Shown here piece by piece: positions 43,346 to 59,510 of a DNA stretch of 64,000 nt. Under the pieces are notes generated by a model. It saw only the letters and a list, made by a program, of their open reading frames with translations. It was not told the origin of the DNA and did not search any database. Within the stretch, counting starts at the first letter, position 1; each line of letters starts with the position of its first letter. This DNA comes from Tubulanus polymorphus (Eukaryota > Nemertea > Palaeonemertea > Tubulaniformes > Tubulanidae): NCBI RefSeq assembly GCF_964204645.1, contig NC_134033.1, forward strand, positions 12,712,155-12,776,154, in the 5' to 3' direction. The translations under genes and the position numbers were made by a program.

Positions 43346-43670
43346 CTGAAATGAAAGATATGTCAGTGGTAAGTTGTAATGGCACCTCTGAGGAAAGTTT
43401 GTTATTTTGTAGGATTTTACATTTTTTGAATAAATAAATTCTGGATTTTAAAATTCTTTTATTTTTAGTGGGTTTTTTATCGTATTGAGATTTGAGACTG
43501 AGACTATTATGCAATGCAAATTGCAATGCTGAAATTATTGTAAACATTTTTTGGGGATGACATTACCTTCAAGGAACCAAGGAGCAAATACGAATTTTTA
43601 ATACGAATCTCAGAATAAAACGAAACAGGTTAAACTGCAGCTATGCAGCATGTCCCGTGAGAGGACCTGG

Positions 43671-43706
43671 GGCCTGTGACGGGACAAGGATGTCCCGTCA
43701 CAGGCC
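43671..43706. repeat. Left subterminal perfect hairpin
   Basis: GGCCTGTGACGGGACA, loop AGGA, then the exact reverse complement. The same GGCCTGTGACGGGACA sequence recurs inside the right-end hairpin loop (50727-50742, inverted), tying the two ends together. Confidence 0.9.
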
Positions 43707-44097
43707 GCGATGGAAAATGAAAACTTTGCATTTCGTAGACGAAATGTCGAAAGAAACTGCACTCGATTGGTTACTATATACACTCAAAATAATGTTAAGA
43801 ACATGTTAATAATCGAAATTTGTTCGTAATTTTATTATTTCAGATCAATGATATCATCAAATCGAAACATTAAATGTAATAATGAAGATCGGATCAAGAG
43901 AAGACAGAACCACAGCTATCGAAATTTCAATTTTTAGTGTATAGACTGACTCATACTATCGAAAATAAAGTGAATGTATCTTGACAATTTTGGTGCCAAT
44001 GGTGTTAGTAACCGTTTGTTAAGCGTTACACTGCAAACAAAAGTAAAAGTGGAGGGGGCAACTTAATGGCCCTAGATCACTCTCGAGAGAGAATTCA

Positions 44098-45272
44098 AAG
44101 TGAGGGACCCGATTCAACACACTGTCCCGTGAGAAGACCCGATTCAACTTACTGTCCCGTGAGAGGACCCGATTTCAAATACTGTCCCGTGAGAGGACCC
44201 GATTCAACACACTGTCCCGTGAGAGGGCCCGATTTTAAATACTTTCCCGTGGGAGGACTCGATTCAACACACTGTCCCGTGAGAGGACCTGATTCAACAC
44301 ACTGTCCCGTGAGAGGACCCGATTTCAAATAATGTCCCGTGAGAGGGCCCGATTCAACACACTGTCCCGTGAGAGGACCCGATTTTAAATACTGTCCCGT
44401 GAGAGGACCCGGTTCAACACACTGTTCCGTGAGAGGGCCCGATTTTAAATACTGTCCCGTGAGAGGATCCGATTTTGAATACTGTCCCGTGATAGGGCCC
44501 GGTTTCAAATAATGTCCCGTGAGAGGGCCCGATTCAACTCACTGTCCCGTGAGAGGGCCCGATTTTAAATACTGTCCCGTGAGAGGACCCGATTTTGAAT
44601 ACTGTCCCGTGAGAGGGCCCGGTTTCAAATAATGTCCCGTGAGAGGGCCCGATTCAACACACTGTCCCGTGAGAGGACCCGATTTTAAATACTGTCCCGT
44701 GAGAGGACCCGGTTCAACACACTGTTCCGTGAGAAGACCCGATTCAACACACTGTCCCGTGAGAGGACCCGATTTTAAATACTGTCCCGTGAGAGGACCC
44801 GATTTTAAATACTGTCCCGTGAGAGGACCCGGTTCAACACACTGTCCCGTGAGAAGACCCGATTCAACACACTGTCCCGTGAGAGGACCCGATTTTAAAT
44901 ACTGTCCCGTGAGAGGACCCGGTTCAACACACTGTCCCGTGAGAAGACCCGATTCAACACACTGTCCCGTGAGAGGACCCGATTTTAAATACTGTCCCGT
45001 GAGAAGACCCGATTCAACACACTGTCCCGTGAGAGGACCCGATTTTAAATACTGTCCCGTGAGAGGACCCGATTTTAAATACTGTCCCGTGAGAAGACCC
45101 GATTCAACACACTGTCCCGTGAGAGGACCCGATTTTAAATACTGTCCCGTGAGAAGACCCGGTTCAACACACTGTCCCGTGAGAGGACCCGATTTTAAAT
45201 ACTGTCCCGTGAGAAGACCCGGTTCAACACACTGTCCCGTGAGAGGACCCGATTTTAAATACTGTCCCGTGA
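44098..45272 (+). repeat. Left 30-bp minisatellite arm (about 39 units)
   Basis: Each unit is a near-constant 17-base part, GTCCCGTGAGAGGACCC, plus a 13-base variable part of two main kinds: GATTCAACACACT (type A) and GATTTTAAATACT (type B). A and B alternate irregularly. The unit is a multiple of 3, so frames stay open (decapeptides RGPDSTHCPV and RGPDFKYCPV). The frames are a by-product of the period; nothing else suggests a protein. The array runs without a gap into the first partial copy of the exon module of the internal gene at GTGAGCCAAAAG. Confidence 0.95.
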
Positions 45273-45545
45273 GCCAAAAGTTGTTGAATGAGTATCTTTA
45301 TGACGAATAGTGAATATTGGTGGAATATTTCTCTATTTTGATTTGTAGGTGTCCGGCGAACGACAGGACCAAGACGACGACGTGGACAATGATATTTCAA
45401 ACGTGAGTCAAAAGTTGTTGAATAAATATCTTTATGACAAATAGTGAATATTGTTGGAATATTTCTCTATTTTGATTTATAGGTGTCCGGCGAACGACAG
45501 GACCAAGACGACGACGTGGACGATGATATTTCAAACGTGGGCCAA
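45270..45545 (+). repeat. Tandem triplication of an exon-bearing module (about 134 bp)
   Basis: Two full copies (starting near 45311 and 45445) and one truncated copy (45270-45310) share CAAAAGTTGTTGAAT, then TTTATGAC, then GTGAATATTG(G/T)TGGAATAT. Each full copy ends in a 54-bp exon coding for SGERQDQDDDVD. The truncated copy abuts the last minisatellite unit. Confidence 0.85.
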
Positions 45546-47818
45546 AAGTTGTTGCATGAAAACTTCAATGTACAATATGAAAAAATGATCAAATATTGAA
45601 AAAAAATATATTTTACTGTATGAAATTACAGGTTTCCGCAGAAGACGGCTGGCTTAGATTGTATGACGACGTCTTTGATATACAAAATCTCACCGAGGCA
45701 GAACAGATTAAAATCAGTATGAAGTTATCACTCAAAGAGTCACATCTCCGTCAGAGTGCAGAGAAAAGGCTTCAATCTCTAGTTTCCGAATCCAATCTGA
45801 ATATTGTGTCGGTCGCGGATGACGGAAGCTGCTTTTTTTGCAGCTGTTGTCGAACAATTGAGGCGAGAAAACGTTGACATAACAGCACATGAGCTACGAT
45901 TAATGGCTGTTTCATACCTTTCTGAAAATAGACATTGCGCTGTAAGTAAATTAAAAACCCATTGATATATCAAGACAGACTACAATAAATATTATATACA
46001 CATATTATGGTTTGCTTCGCTGGATGGGGCTGATAAGGCCGACTTTCTGGAGTCTCATCTGACATGGCCATTATATCTTAATAAAATGAGACAAAGAACC
46101 ACCTGGGCCGATGCTTTAGTTGTCCGTGCCACAGCTGACTGTTAAGGGAGACCAATGGTACTATATACCAGTTCAGAGCAGTCAAACATCAATATGATAG
46201 ATCCTGTCGAATGTAAAAATGCTGAACCCATCTTACTAGGGCATATTCAAGATATTCACTACGTTGCCCTAGTAAAAAGGAGCTATATCCCAAGACGACG
46301 CGTGTCAGTCGAGAGTGTCAGAGGGTAACCTTGCGGCCTAACCCACGGAAGACGGTAAGTTGATAGTATATGCCACCCCTTCTGACTATTTGGCAAAAAT
46401 AATACAGCCATCAGAAGCCTTGTTCATGTCAGCTAAGGGTTAATTAATTGAATTAGCGTCAAAGCGTCAAAGTGACAGTTACCTCTGAGAACCGCAGAAA
46501 AAAAGAAGACGGGTTGTCGATAAAGGAATCTACTGCGTTTGCAAGAAACCAGATGATGGAAGGTAAAGCTTAATTATATCATATAAGATCAGGCTGTTGT
46601 TTTAAGATTCAGTCGTCATTGTCGAAAAAATCTTTTACCTTCACTTTCACTTTCACTTACCTTCACTTTCAAAATTTTCTGCATTTGCATTTTAGGAAGT
46701 ATTTGCAATGCGATGAATGTAGTGGGTGGTTCCATCCGAAATGTATTGGTCTGAACGAAGATACTGTGGAGAAAATTGACTATAGATGCGAAACGTGTTT
46801 TCAGGTAAGCGATGAACTAAAAAAATATTTTGATCGAATAAGCTATGCCTATATCCTTGCTATGCTATCCTTTTATACAATGTGATTGCATTCTTTTTAT
46901 ATAGGTACCTAAACGATTCATTAAGAGTCAGGTATGGAATCCGATACATAATGCATACGAAACTGTTGCCATCTTCCACTAAAAAGCAATGAATCAAATG
47001 TTTTTCTTTTCGCAGCTTGGCGCGGTTGAATATCACGTTTCTCGTATAATTAATGCCGAGATAAAAGACAAGAGGTAAATATTGTACCTTAGTAGAAATC
47101 TCGCCAGTTTGTTGAATTTTTCAAACTTTTGTTGATAATATACAATCTTTGGTTTCAGAAGGCCGGAATTCAGGAGACATTTGGACTTGATTAACAAAGA
47201 CCATGAAAGAGCCGAAAAAGAACTGAAAGGATATGGCTATGGGCTTTTAACTGATGAGGTAAGCATTGATAACAGAAAATATGAAATGCGTACAAATAAA
47301 TGAGCTTTCTTTCGATCATCGTAATATTCAATATTTTAAAGGGCCATGCATATCTCTATAGTGTAATGAAATCATACGTCAGCCCTACCTTTGCGGACAA
47401 ATCGTAAGTATATACATGAATCAGACGTGAAGTTTTTTTACTATATTTCGAAATGATAATCAATTCATTTCAATTACAGGAAACCATATTCAACTCGCTA
47501 CATGACCCTCCGACAACATCATTCTAAAATGCTGAATTCAGTTTTTAAAGAAGGAAAGACGTAAGTTCATTCTCATCTTCTATTGCTAATTTCTTAAAAG
47601 AATTTCATCCATGTTATATTCATTGTATTAAAATATTTTTCAGGTCAGCAGTAACGTATGTTAATGACGTTTTGCTTAAAGAGGCCATTTGTTTATTGGT
47701 GTCAACCTACCGAAATATCACATACAACGAGGCTGATATTCTTGGAAGAAGAACAGAGGCCAAAAAACTAAAAGATGTACAACGACTAATGTCCAAATAC
47801 TTCTTGCCAGATTATTGA
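45349..47818 (+). pseudogene. Internal gene of the foldback element: OTU-protease-like region (damaged) plus PHD finger
   Basis: Exons inferred from splice sites and phase: 45349-45402, 45483-45536, 45632-45941, about 46036-46330, 46498-46562, 46696-46804, 47016-47074, 47159-47258, 47342-47403, 47480-47560 and 47644-47818 (stop TGA). The first two are duplicated acidic exons. The third reaches the OTU catalytic motif DDGSCFF, but a run of seven T (45833-45839) shifts the frame; its length is one base over a multiple of three. The OTU end (TTWADALVVRATAD, then LGHIQDIHYVAL) has an in-frame TAA at 46143-46145. The PHD part is intact: KKRRR, YCVC, YLQCDECSGWFHPKCIG, YRCETC, a Cys4-His-Cys3 set. 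The roughly 150-residue C-terminus has no family I recognise. Start codon and 5' end are not identified. The PHD-to-stop part still reads cleanly. Confidence 0.6.
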
Positions 47819-48746
47819 AGAGTGAAGCAGTTTTCGATTCTTAAATGGGAGCTGTTGTAGATTGGTTATCCCGTAATGATTGTATTCTATGGAATAAGTT
47901 TTCTTGTTGCGATGAATTTTTGGATTGCTAGAGATGGTCTTTGCTGAATTTTGGTAATGGTTTTAATAGGAACCAGATTGTGACATGGATGTTTGAATTG
48001 TTGAAATGCTGTCCAGTCTTCTAATAGATGTGTGTAGTATATAGCCTATAGAAGTTCTTTGCAATGATGTTTCAGAAGTTATGAATGATGGTTGAAAGAT
48101 TCCAGCCGGGGCCGAGATGGTATTGTAAATTGTTGTTAATTAGTGGATCGTTTTATCTGCCTGGTTTGTTGTCGATGTCTTATGCTGTGTACTACTTCGT
48201 GTTAAATATTATTTTTGTATTGTGTCTTAACAGACAAGGGCGTTTTCTGTCATCCAATATGAAATGATAATTTTTGGTTCAAATTATAATACATCTATCC
48301 GGAATTGGGAAATATTGCTGAAGAGTAAAAGGGGAAATATGAAAGAATTGATGATAACCTTTTTTACCGTGTAAAGTAATAATTAATAATCAAATGATAA
48401 GTAATAATTTAGTTTGGCGACAAAGATTTAGTAATCTAAAATGCTAAATTGATTTCGAATTCCAACGTATGTTGTTTATGTTCAAATATGAATAATATAG
48501 TCTTCGAATGTAATATGGTTTACAGATTTTGATAAATAAATAACTGAACATAATTTCACATATATACGATTTGTTTTATGTTTTAAGGGGACATAGCCAA
48601 TTTGGCTTTTAGTACGTACATCCAGCCATCATTGTACGCATATTGTTGAAATAATAATTTCTTGTTGTAATTTTTATATATGGCAAAAATGCATTATCAT
48701 TATGAGCATGGGACTCAACATTGACAAAGTGGACAATTTCATTAGT
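47819..48746. other. 3' non-coding part of the foldback element
   Basis: AT-rich sequence between the stop of the PHD gene and the right minisatellite arm. AATAAA at 48534-48539 is a possible poly(A) signal. No other feature was seen. Confidence 0.45.
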
Positions 48747-50450
48747 CCTCTCACGGGACAGTGTGTTGAACCGAGTCCTCTCACGTGACATTCTTTGAAA
48801 CCAGGTCCTCTCACGGAACAGTAAGTTGATTCGGGTCCTCTCACGGGACAGTGTGTTGAATCGGGTCCTCTCACGGGACAGTATGTTGAATCGGGTCCTC
48901 TCACGGGACATTATTTAAAAGCGGGCCCTCTCACGGGACAGTGTGTTGAATCGGGTCCTCTCACGGGACAGAGTGTTGAATCGGGCCCTCTCACGTGACA
49001 TTATTTGAAACCAGGTCCTCTCACGGAACAGTAAGTTGATTCGGGTCCTCTCACGGGACAGTGTGTTGAATCGGGTCCTCTCACGGGACAGTATGTTGAA
49101 TCGGGTCCTCTCACGGGACATTATTTAAAAGCGGGCCCTCTCACGGGACAGTGTGTTGAATCGGGTCCTCTCACGGGACAGAGTGTTGAATCGGGCCCTC
49201 TCACGTGACATTATTTGAAACCAGGTCCTCTCACGGGACAGTATGTTGAACCGAGTCCTCTCACGTGACATTCTTTGAAACCAGGTCCTCTCACGGGACA
49301 GTAAGTTGATTCGGGTCCTCTCACGGGACAGTGTGTTGAATCGGGTCCTCTCACGGGACAGTATTTAAAATAGGGTCCTCTAACGGGACAGTATTTAAAA
49401 TCGGGTCCTCTCACGGGACAGTGTGTTGAACCGGGTCCTCTCACGTGACATTATTTGAAACCAGGTCCTCTCACGGAACAGTAAGTTGATCCGGGTCCTC
49501 TCACGGGACATTATTTGAAACCAGGTCCTCTCACGGGACAGTGTGTTGAATCGGGTCCTCTCACGGGACAGTATTTAAAATCGGGTTCCTTCGCGGGACA
49601 GTATTTAAAATAGGGTCCTCTCGCGGGACAGTGTGTTGAATCGGGTCCTCTCACGGGACAGTATTTAAAATCGGGTTCCTTCGCGGGACAGTATTTAAAA
49701 TAGGGTCCTTTCACGGGACAGTGTGTTGAACCGGGTCCTCTAACGGGACAGTATTCAAAATCGGGTCCTCTCACGGGACAGTGTGTTGAATCGGGTCCTC
49801 TCACGGGACAGTATTTAAAATACGGTCCTCTAACGAGACAGTATTCAAAATCGGGTCCTCTCACGGGACAGTGTGTTGAATCGGGCCCTCTCACGTGACA
49901 TTATTTGAAACCAGGTCCTCTCACGGGACAGTAAGTTGATTCGGGTCCTCTCACGGGACAGTGTGTTGAATCGGGTCCTCTCACGGGACAGTATTTAAAA
50001 TCGGGTTCCTTCGCGGGACAGTATTTAAAATAGGGCCCTCTCACGGGACAGTGTGTTGAATCGGGTCCTCTCACGGGACAGTATTTAAAATCGGGTTCCT
50101 TCGCGGGACAGTATTTAAAATCGGGTCCTCTCACGGGACAGTGTGTTGAATCGGGTCCTCTCACGGACAGTATTTAAAATCGGGTTCCTTCGCGGGACAG
50201 TATTTAAAATAGGGTCCTCTCACGGGACAGTGTGTTGAATCGGGTCCTCTCACGGGACAGTATTTAAAATCGGGTTCCTTCGCGGGACAGTATTTAAAAT
50301 AGGGTCGTCTAACGGGACAGTATTCAAAATCGGGTCCTCTCACGGAACAGTGTGTTTAATCGGGTCCTCTCACGGGACAGTATTTAAAATCGGGTCCTCT
50401 CACGGGACATTGTGTTGAATCGGGACCTCTCACGGGACGGTAACTTGAAT
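48747..50450 (-). repeat. Right 30-bp minisatellite arm (about 57 units), inverted relative to the left arm
   Basis: The minus-strand unit is the same GTCCCGTGAGAGGACCC plus 13 bases as in the left arm, with more variants (GGTTTCAAATAAT, GAATCAACTTACT, and GAACCCGATTTT with GCGAAG). Higher-order structure is visible: a 7-unit block of 210 bp starting near 48783 is repeated almost exactly from about 48993, and a three-unit 90-bp block recurs between about 49560 and 50310. One unit at 50160 is 29 bp. Confidence 0.95.
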
Positions 50451-50789
50451 CGCGGGTTCCGTTGTAAAATCCTGCGTGAAAAACGTGCATTCATATCCCC
50501 TATTGTCCCCCTGGCCCTGCAGTAAATTAGAATTTTTCGGTAGGCCCTTATGTATTTATAAATGAAATCAAAATGGAAAATGTAATAATTACAATCGATA
50601 GTTGAATTTATTTATTCATAATCGTTATAGGCAGAATACATAAGAATATATAAGGGACTCGAAACCGCTAGCATTGGAATCGACGTTTCATGTAAGAATT
50701 CTACATTTGTCCCGTGAGAGGACCCATGTCCCGTCACAGGCCCGGGTCCTCTCACGGGACGCTGCAGTTAAACTCATATGAATAAAACG

Positions 50790-51879
50790 CTTTCGACCCG
50801 GAAATAACTTAGCATTGCGTAACACCGACAAATCGTCATATGGCGTCACAAGCCCCGAGGCTTGTCATGCCATATTGGGGCCTGACACGCCATGTAGTAA
50901 ACATAAAATAAAAATCAAATCCTATGCAGGAGATGAAACGTCGACTACGTCTCGCGGCTTTACTTCCGAAGTTGAAATATTGGATATTTATTTGTCATAG
51001 ATTATTTACAACGTACTATATATACATAATAAGACCTAGATATTGCATCGCATATATGAAAATTATTTGATGCCGTGATGAATTAAAAAATTAGACCAAA
51101 TCAAATTTGATTATGACAAGATAAAAACGATTTTACTTAAAATCAAATTTGATTTGACGTGATAAATTCGCCTTCCTCCAGCGATGGGAAACTTCGTGTG
51201 CTCCGGCGGCGTCGAGGGTTAAAAAGTCTGGACTCCGGCGTTCAAGGTTTATTTAATTCTGTGTTTATTATTTGAGGACTGTAACCTTTTAAATCGAACT
51301 CAGTTTCTTCATGCTTTTGTCATTTCAGCAGGTTAGGACCCAGACGAACGATCGACTGACGCTCGAAGAGTACGAGCTGTACCTTAAAAACTGACCGGAG
51401 CCGACTGACTGGAGCCGACCGCAACAGACTGAAAAAAACCAGGCGGCGCTAAATTCGAGGGTCGGGAATCGAGTAATTTATTTTATATGGCCTTGTTCTA
51501 CGGTAGGTTCGGCTGGCTACTGGCGCGTATTCAAAGTAAATCCATTCAACAATAGAGACACAATAGCGGTTTTTCAGAGTTGTTGATAACGCTCACATGC
51601 CCTATTGAATACGTCACCGGCTAACCACGGTGTAGTACAAGCATAGACCATTCACCTCTGCACACTCACACTGTGAACATGCTACCGTGGATTCTCCTCC
51701 TGGCGATTTTCGCTGCGCTCCCGCTCCTGTTCCTGCTTCCTGAGGAACGACGTCTTTATGTTTTATGTGTTACTGTTCGTCTCCGTGCTGTCCTGTACTG
51801 TTTCGTGTTCATTAATCCGTTCTATTTTTCAGGATTTAACCCGTTTTATTTTTCAGGGTCGAATTTCAACATTTGCTGG
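50790..51879. other. Flank of the foldback element; no firm gene
   Basis: A hairpin with 17-base arms and two mismatches lies at 50838-50875 (ATATGGCGTCACAAGCC). A short open exon-like stretch after an acceptor at about 51330 reads QTNDRLTLEEYELYLKN then stop, but no upstream exon was found. A hydrophobic open stretch at 51680-51750 (LLLAIFAALPLLFLL) precedes the LINE tail. Confidence 0.35.
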
Positions 51880-56179: not shown

Positions 56180-56385
56180 CAAATCTCGATGTATTAAAAT
56201 AGGCAGTCAACTTAATTGACCTCAATCAGTTGCTTGCCGGTTCAGACTGGTTGGAAGATTAATTGAATGAACCGGAACCGGATTTTCCAATTATGTGCTT
56301 GGTTTTAAAGAAAACAAAATTTATGTAAAATCGACCCCCGATCACACAACTATATCTGTACTTCGATTTCCGATTTTGAATATAA
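56180..56385. repeat. Dispersed repeat D, copy 2
   Basis: The counterpart of 33905-34115, in the same orientation, with TTGCTTGCCGGTTCAGACTG and CAACTATATCTGTACTTCGA among the shared blocks. It leads directly into the 73-bp repeat. Confidence 0.75.
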
Positions 56386-56386
56386 A

Positions 56387-56606
56387 ACTAGACAAAATTA
56401 TTCAACCTTGTAAACTTTCGGACTATTTACATGAAAAAGAAGAGCAAAGAATTGTAAAAACTAGACAAAATTATTCAACCTTGTAAACTTTCGGACTATT
56501 TACATGAAAAAGAAGAGCAAAGAATTGTAAAAACTAGACAAAATTATTCAACCTTGTAAACTTTCGGACTATTTACACGGAAAAAAACGACAAAAAATAT
56601 GTAAAA
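56387..56606. repeat. 73-bp tandem repeat, three copies
   Basis: Copies start at 56387, 56460 and 56533 with ACTAGACAAAATTATTCAAC and include TTTCGGACTATTTACA. The first two are essentially identical; the third degenerates after about 50 bases. Confidence 0.9.
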
Positions 56607-56619
56607 TTAGACAACCAAC

Positions 56620-59510
56620 TTAGGAGACCCTCGCCAATAATGAACCCGGCAATCATAAAAGGTAACTTAACATAGATGGAATTATTGCGATAAATTCTAA
56701 TTTCAAAAATTTGTCATTACAGGATAACTTCTTTTAATCATTGCAGCTAGATTTCAACTATATGAAAAACCCAGATTGAGATCAACTACTTGTCCAAAAT
56801 CGACCAACTGGAACAGCGAACAGATGAGGCAAACAGAATCGAACTCATTTACCAACCAACTAATAAGATAATTGCCGATAACGAACCCAGCAATCATAAA
56901 AGGTAACTTGATATACATGAAATTATTACGATTAATTCTTATTGAAATATTTTGTCATTACAGAATATCTTCTTTTAATCATTGCAGCTAAATATCAACT
57001 ATGCGAAAAAAACCCAGTTTGAGAACAACTACTCGTCAAAAATCGACCAACTTGAACGGCGCACAGCCAACTAGGATCGACCTCATTAACCAATCAACTA
57101 ATAAGATAATCGCCAACAAAGAAACCGGCAATCATAAAAGGTAACTTGATATACTTGGAATTATTACGATTAATTCTTATTGAAATATTTTGTCATTAAA
57201 GGATATCTTCTTTTGATCATTGCAGCTAAATTTCAACTATGAGAAAAAAACCCAGCTTGAGAACAACTACTCGCCCAAAATCAACCAACTTGAACAGCGC
57301 ACAGATGGGGCCAACAGAATCGAACTCATTAACGCACAAACTTTAGATGATCCACACACCGATAACGAACCAAGCAATCAAATAAGGTAACTTGATATAC
57401 ATGAAATTATTACGATTAATTCTTATTGAAAAAATCTTCTTTTGATCATTGCAGCTAAATTTCAACTATGCGAAAAACCCAGTTTGAGATCAACTACTCG
57501 TCAAAAATCGACCAACATGAGCGGCGCACAGCCAACTAGGATCAAACTTATGTACCAACCAACTAATGAGATAATTGCCGAACCCAGCAATCACTAACTT
57601 TAACAGCGCACAGCCAACTAGGATAGAACTCATTAACCAAACAACTAATAAGATAATCGCCAATAATGAAACCGGCAATCATAAAAGGTAACTTGATATA
57701 CATGGAATTATTACGATTAATTCTGTCATTGTCATTAAAGGATATCTTCTTTTGATCATTGCAGCTTAATTTCAACTATGAAAAAAAACCCAGCTTGAGA
57801 TCAACTACTCGCCCAAAATCGACCAACTTGAACAGAACACAGGTGGGGCCAACAGAATCGAACTCATTAACGCACAAACTTTAGATGATCCCCACCGATA
57901 ATGAACCAAGCAATCAAAGAAGGCAACTTGTTATACATGAAATTATTACGATTAATTCTTATTGAAAAATTTTGTCATTACAGAATATCTTCTTTTAATC
58001 ATTGCAGCTAAATTTCAACTGCGAAAAAACCCAGTTTGAGAACAACTACTCGTCAAAAATCGACCAACTTGAACGGCGCACAGCCAAAGGATCAAACTCA
58101 TTTACCAACCAACTTATAAGATAATTGCCGATAACGAACCCAACAATCATAAAAGGTAACTTGATATACATGAAATTATTACGATTAAATCTTATTGAAA
58201 TATTTGGTCATTACAGGATATCTTCTTTTAATTATTGCAGCTAAATATCAACTATGCGAAAAAACCCAGTTTGAGAACAACTACTTGTCAAAAATCGACC
58301 AACACACAGGTGGCGCAAACCAAATCGAACTTATTAACGCACAAACTTTAGATGATCGACACGGATAACGAACCAAGCAATCATAAAAGGTAACTTGATA
58401 TACATGAAATTATTACGATTAATTCTTATTGAAATATTTGGTCATTACAGGATATCTTCTTTTAATCATTGCAGCTAAATATCAACTATGCGAAAAAACC
58501 CAGCTTGAGATCAACTACTCGTCCAAAATTGACCAACTTGAAGAGCGCACAGCCAACTAGGATCGAACTCATTAACCAATCAACTAACAAGATAACCGCC
58601 AATAATGAAACCGGCAATCATAAAAGGTAACTTGATATACATGGAATTATTATGATTGATTTTTATTGAAATATTTTGTCATTAAAGGATATCTTCTTTT
58701 GATCATTGCAGCTAAATTTCAACTATGCGAAAAAACCCAGTTTGAGAACAACTACTCGCCCAAAATCGACCAACTTGAACAGCGCACAGATGGGGCCAAC
58801 AGAATCGAACTCATTAACGCACAAACTTTAGATGATCTACACCGATAGCCAACCAAGCAATCAAAAAAGGTAACTTGATGTACATGAAATTATTACGATT
58901 AATTCTTATTAAAAAATTTTGTCATTAAAGGATATCTTCTTTTGATCATTGCAGCTAAATTTCAACTATGCGAAAAAACCCAGTTTGAGAACAACTACTT
59001 GTCAAAAATCGACCAACTTGAACAGCACACAGGTGGCGCCAACCAAATCGAACTCATTAACGCACAAACTTTAGATTATCCACACCGATAACGAACCAAG
59101 CAATCAAAAAAGGTAACTTCATATACATGAAATTATTACGATTAATTCTTATTGAAATATTTGGTCATTACAGGATATCTTCTTCTAATTATTGCAGCTA
59201 AATATCAACTATGAGAAAAAACCCAGCTTGAGATCAACTACTCGTCCAAAATCGACCAACTTGAACAGCGCCAGATGAGGCCAACAGAATCGAACTCATT
59301 AACCCACCAACTTTAGATGATCCACACCGATAATGAACCAAGCAATCATAAAAGGTAACTTAATATACATGGAATTATTACGATTAATTCTTATTGAAAT
59401 ATTTTGTCATTACAGGATATCTTCTTTTAATTATTGCAGCTAAATATCAACTATGAGAAAAAACCCAGCTTGAGATCAACAACTCATCAGAAAATCTACA
59501 AGTAGATGAA
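56620..59510 (+). repeat. 12-copy array of about 240-bp units, each carrying an exon-like module
   Basis: Units recur with acceptor-like ATTGCAG followed by CTAAAT at about 56743, 56984, 57222, 57451, 57761, 58004, 58236, 58471, 58707, 58951, 59194 and 59437. Each has a T-rich run (ATCTTCTTTTAATCATTGCAG), a module of roughly 120-150 bp that reads KFQLCEKTQFENNYS then KIDQLEQRTDGANRIELI in the best-preserved copy (58709-58848), and AAAAGGTAACTT, a donor-like end. Two subtypes differ in their last 40 bases (CCAACTAATAAGATAAT or GCACAAACTTTAGATGAT). Most copies carry frameshifts or stops, so a functional repeat protein is doubtful. Confidence 0.75.

Follow-up and report, generated by a model that had tools for sequence, protein, structure and literature searches.

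The stretch analysed here, called the window, comprises 64,000 nucleotides of the Tubulanus polymorphus genome (C9:12712155-12776154) and contains, at 43622-50780, a foldback-type mobile element of 7,159 bp in which two large inverted arrays of a single 30-bp unit (44100-45273 and 48745-50452) flank a gene with OTU and PHD domains. The element begins with GAAACAGG and ends with CATATG, inverted GTTAAACTGCAGC ends are present at both sides, and the duplicated target site AATAAAAC lies directly outside, at 43614-43621 and 50781-50788. The left terminus (GAAACAGGTTAAACTGCAGC, 43622-43641, forward strand), whose inner 13 bp are inverted at the right end, and the right terminus (GCTGCAGTTAAACTCATATG, 50761-50780, forward strand) are near-identical across 14 aligned copies, with one position of the latter being T or A. 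Direct reading of the sequence additionally revealed two subterminal hairpins, GGCCTGTGACGGGACA-AGGA-TGTCCCGTCACAGGCC with a 16-bp stem at 43671-43706 and a second one with a 17-bp stem (GTCCCGTGAGAGGACCC / GGGTCCTCTCACGGGAC) at 50709-50760. The inverted arrays around a gene, the hairpins and the inverted ends had all been described in the original prediction, which was made from these letters alone, and they are present; the mobile element that it placed at 43613-50789 is real, but its limits had to be corrected to those given above.

The main correction concerns the target duplication, for which 10 bp had been proposed. We searched the 268-Mb haploid assembly for copies and relatives, and compared 14 stitched copies, that is, genomic copies assembled from adjacent pieces and not a consensus. 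Each of eight positions of the duplication agrees in 13-14 of the 14, whereas the next position outward agrees at chance level (1/14 and 3/14 copies), so the duplication is 8 bp long. The outer G on each side of the window duplication is a chance match to the terminal G of the element itself, and the six bases formerly thought to separate the duplication from the ends are part of the element. The 8-bp duplication is exact in 12 stitched copies and matches at seven of eight positions in the other two; since mispaired flanks, used as a control, never matched at more than six positions, a chance origin of the duplications is excluded. Across the family the termini read [G/T]AAACAGGTTAAACTGCAGC...GCTGCAGTTWAACTCATATG in all 14 stitched copies. 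Inverted ends together with duplications of fixed length at independent sites are those of a cut-and-paste DNA transposon, and the element is thus a non-autonomous transposon of this type with a foldback shape. Joining the flanks of the window element to look for an empty site gave no match in the haploid assembly other than the flanks themselves.

In the genome the family has at least 15 complete, two-ended copies at different sites, with sizes from 0.78 to 13.8 kb, so the search for further loci that had been proposed as a possible refutation of a foldback-type element with minisatellite arms instead found copies. The fifteenth (C7:8152434), outside the automatic stitching, shows by reading the duplication CAAATTTA on both sides. 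Used as queries, the left end gave 66 matches and the right end 54, sub-matches included, and the end pattern with a short spacer was found at 17 exact genomic sites compared to none for a control pattern. Of the seven full-length copies whose cores were aligned, six are 99.3-99.7% identical, which points to recent movement, and the last one is 97.3-97.6% identical. Furthermore, some copies of 0.78-5.1 kb are internal deletion derivatives that have lost the OTU region and retain both ends, and the 13.8-kb copy owes its extra size solely to another element that interrupts it. In this family copy (C2:9097208-9107266; L069-L070) the insertion carries a 355-residue gag-like frame and repeated flanking frames, and it is likely a long terminal repeat (LTR) retrotransposon. 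Our literature searches found no paper that describes the family, which is possibly undescribed hitherto.

The arms give the family its foldback character, being long, inverted, made of short tandem repeats and variable between copies. In the window the left arm (44100-45273, reverse strand) has a 30-bp unit with the conserved core (G)GTCCTCTCACGGGACA, and the right arm (48745-50452, forward strand) holds about 57 units. Across copies the left arm has from 6 to 70 units and the right one from 0 to 106, and therefore arm length changes. The unit contains the terminal motif GGTCCTCTCACGGGACA, and because the motif is repeated in this way the arms probably consist of multiplied binding sites for the transposase, by analogy with Galileo, where multiple binding sites of the transposase domain have been reported in tandem-repeat arms (PMC3688188). 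The unit core, which corresponds to the terminal motif, is less variable than the spacer (in an unanchored register, the mean entropy is 0.26 bits for the core and 0.71 bits for the spacer), and this also fits repeated binding sites as in Galileo (PMC3688188).

The gene between the arms, the only one in full-length copies, reads on the forward strand. Upstream of its OTU region lies a fusion point, CGTGAG (45268-45273), where the left array joins two 134-bp tandem intron-exon repeats (45268-45554); the junction is identical in all eight full-length copies. The OTU protease region follows with its exons and introns (45632-46330), then a PHD finger on two exons (46513-46572 and 46694-46804; Pfam PHD, 42 bits) and the exons of a C-terminal domain (47146-47818, the final one at 47630-47818), which has relatives at 42-55% identity. 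OTU and PHD are the recognised domains and the C-terminal one is unassigned. The OTU match scored 26.4 bits (cut-off 23.3) with a read-through peptide whose end is partly in the wrong frame, and a relative's frame gave a cleaner score of 35 bits. At the cysteine motif of OTU the reading frame is disrupted, at a 7-T run (45833-45839) that is identical in seven of the eight full-length copies and deleted in the eighth (C10_3215), and all eight share an in-frame TAA (46143-46145). The internal gene had thus been correctly noticed but is intact in no full-length copy: with the stop in all copies and the frameshift in every copy that keeps its site, it is a passenger pseudogene whose lesions are older than the spread of the family. 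The absence of a recognisable transposase, which the original prediction had also noted, held as well, as none was found in any family copy, the Pfam scan of the internal protein returned OTU and PHD, and none of the transposase-like matches in the genome lies inside the window family.

Relatives of the C-terminal and PHD exons occur elsewhere in the genome at 42-61% identity. At two of these loci, on C11 and C4, a transposase-like gene is followed by the OTU, PHD and C-terminal modules, ordered as in the window element, and the OTU frames are open across the cysteine motif. A CxC4 cluster is visible upstream at the C11 locus, while the C4 piece examined starts within the gene; CxC4 matches in relatives scored 26-34 bits, around the cut-off of 26.9. 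The genes on C11 and C4 have conserved acidic motifs, and we call the relatives' gene transposase-like on the basis of the CxC4 cluster, acidic residues conserved in an alignment and its repeated occurrence in the genome. Other loci have a Josephin domain in place of OTU (38 bits, cut-off 26). At C4:1322000-1329200 (L083) and C11:9703700-9709000 (L084) this deubiquitinase domain of Josephin type is fused to the transposase-like frame, and a PHD finger follows downstream; among Josephin-type loci, C4 and C6 hold colinear matches of equal score and are for this reason probably recent copies. A further relative of the C-terminal exon, at C1:2260800-2268800 (L079), was set aside, as no transposase-like gene was found there; beside the exon lie a 662-residue reverse-transcriptase-like frame and arrays in which a 59-bp unit is repeated (about 40 units), and four more loci score nearly the same.

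The window family shares with the CxC4-type lineage not only the OTU-PHD-C-terminal module but also a terminal motif. The arm unit and the subterminal repeats of the C11 element have a 16-bp exact match, ATCGGGTCCTCTCACG, compared to a longest match of 14 bp in 1000 dinucleotide shuffles; TCGACGTTTCAT is found near the right end of both, and both families end in CATATG on the right. By our inference the C11 element would be about 10.6 kb long, with a duplication matching at six of eight positions. Additionally, a 148-bp segment of the window (50837-50984), 48 bp from the target duplication, starts with CATATG and is 93% identical to the right end of the C11-type element; judged by this similarity, a related family has left a solo end next to the window insertion.

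All these data make it probable that the element belongs to a foldback-type family that has lost its transposase by deletion, is mobilised in trans by a CxC4-type lineage and has arms that multiply the terminal motif. The ancestor would have encoded a CxC4-type transposase followed by the OTU, PHD and C-terminal domains. One deletion could then have fused the left arm to the intron at CGTGAG, with loss of the transposase; the array unit contains this hexamer, as does the 134-bp repeat where its intron begins, and a single event at this short homology is suggested by the junction common to all full-length copies. The shortened element would have spread with a transposase that related elements provided in trans, with its arms, the probable binding sites, growing and shrinking between moves, as has been proposed for Galileo. 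Several observations weigh against this scenario. The genome search yielded no transposase-bearing copy of exactly this family, and we therefore only infer the supply in trans, as we do binding and cutting. The C11 and window families differ over most of the remaining terminal sequence, the target duplication of the C11 relative matches at only six of eight positions, and repeat homogenisation rather than binding could explain why the unit core varies little. Moreover, none of the catalytic transposase models of Pfam, those for MULE (Mutator-like element) and KDZ included, matches the relatives' gene, and the structure predicted for one transposase-Josephin frame reached a predicted local distance difference test (pLDDT) score of only 43, too poor for use; a sequence search against solved structures also gave no match.

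The closest rival is a non-autonomous Rehavkus or other MULE, moved by a MULE transposase. The original prediction had also seen a Mutator-like affinity, and it is true that Rehavkus-1_TC has satellite arrays within inverted termini (PMC10218199), that Mutator is where most foldback elements have been placed (PMC4079207) and that this genome contains many MULE genes. However, the duplication is 8 bp and not 9, PF10551 (MULE) matches neither any copy nor the CxC4 relatives, although weak matches could escape, and the OTU-PHD module adjoins a CxC4-type transposase-like gene, so we regard a MULE origin as unlikely. It is far less plausible that the OTU/PHD gene is itself an unrecognised transposase and the element autonomous. 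Being the only gene of full-length copies, it would be the natural candidate, but it is broken in all of them, its domains are just OTU, PHD and the unassigned C-terminal one, and derivatives without it have intact duplications.

Two other explanations have hardly any probability left. OTU domains can occur in Helitrons (PMC9741609), and a Helitron- or Helentron-type rolling-circle element could carry one, but the clear 8-bp duplications and the inverted ends argue against it, and neither the core nor the relatives scanned showed a Helitron domain. Long inverted arrays are also difficult to assemble, which could suggest an inversion or collapse artefact; against this, the 14 stitched copies have differing flanks and independent target duplications. 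Without a transposase-like gene in any copy, the family is at most a deletion derivative and not a full member of the CxC4 lineage, and from the sequences compared we would classify it as a foldback-type derivative of this lineage whose superfamily name is unsettled. Elsewhere in the window, tandem repeats of 73, 238 and 243 bp occupy 56384-59485, the 243-bp one with about 7.6 copies.

To our knowledge, Mutator and P transposases are the main ones to which foldback arms have been linked until now. If a third lineage has indeed arrived at this shape, this would support an independent origin of tandem arms as transposase capture, and the link of OTU and Josephin to the same transposase-like gene raises the question of ubiquitin control of transposition. 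A more speculative proposal, doubtful at present, is that the CxC4-type elements are a transposon lineage of their own in animals, whose standard parts are tandem-repeat arms, an exchangeable deubiquitinase (OTU or Josephin, depending on the family) and a PHD finger, and whose defective members out-compete their suppliers via multiplied binding sites in the arms. An exchange of deubiquitinase class, parallel to the OTU/Josephin swap, has been reported in Helitrons and herpesvirus relatives (PMC9741609).

Among known systems, Rehavkus resembles the window element in the tandem arrays of its inverted termini and the PHD finger of its coding part (PMC6446971, PMC10218199), here found in the arms and the core, respectively, and the 9.5 kb of Rehavkus-1_TC is close in size. 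It differs in the reported 9-bp duplication, compared to 8 bp here (PMC6446971, PMC10218199), and in its transposase, which is grouped with MULEs while the relatives in this genome contain a CxC4 cluster and did not match MULE, a comparison made by description only. Zisupton/KDZ elements share 8-bp duplications (PMC12730594) with the family and, through the CxC4 cluster, which is KDZ-associated according to Pfam, a feature of the related transposase-like genes; nevertheless, the KDZ catalytic model PF18758 misses the relatives' gene and matches other loci in the genome. Galileo, of the Drosophila P superfamily, has foldback-like long arms and internal tandem repeats with transposase-domain binding sites (PMC3688188), but the relatives' genes yielded neither a P-element nor a THAP domain. 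Tm1 of root-knot nematodes has composite arms of variable length and derivatives resembling miniature inverted-repeat transposable elements (PMC3169594), differing in its 9-bp duplications and Phantom-type Mutator transposase. Lastly, Tetris of Drosophila virilis is likewise a non-autonomous foldback element with 8-10-bp duplications, and its arm repeats share sequence with the flanking domain (PMC4079207), although its unit of about 220 bp contrasts with the 30 bp found here and, unlike the window element, it has no protein-coding remnant.
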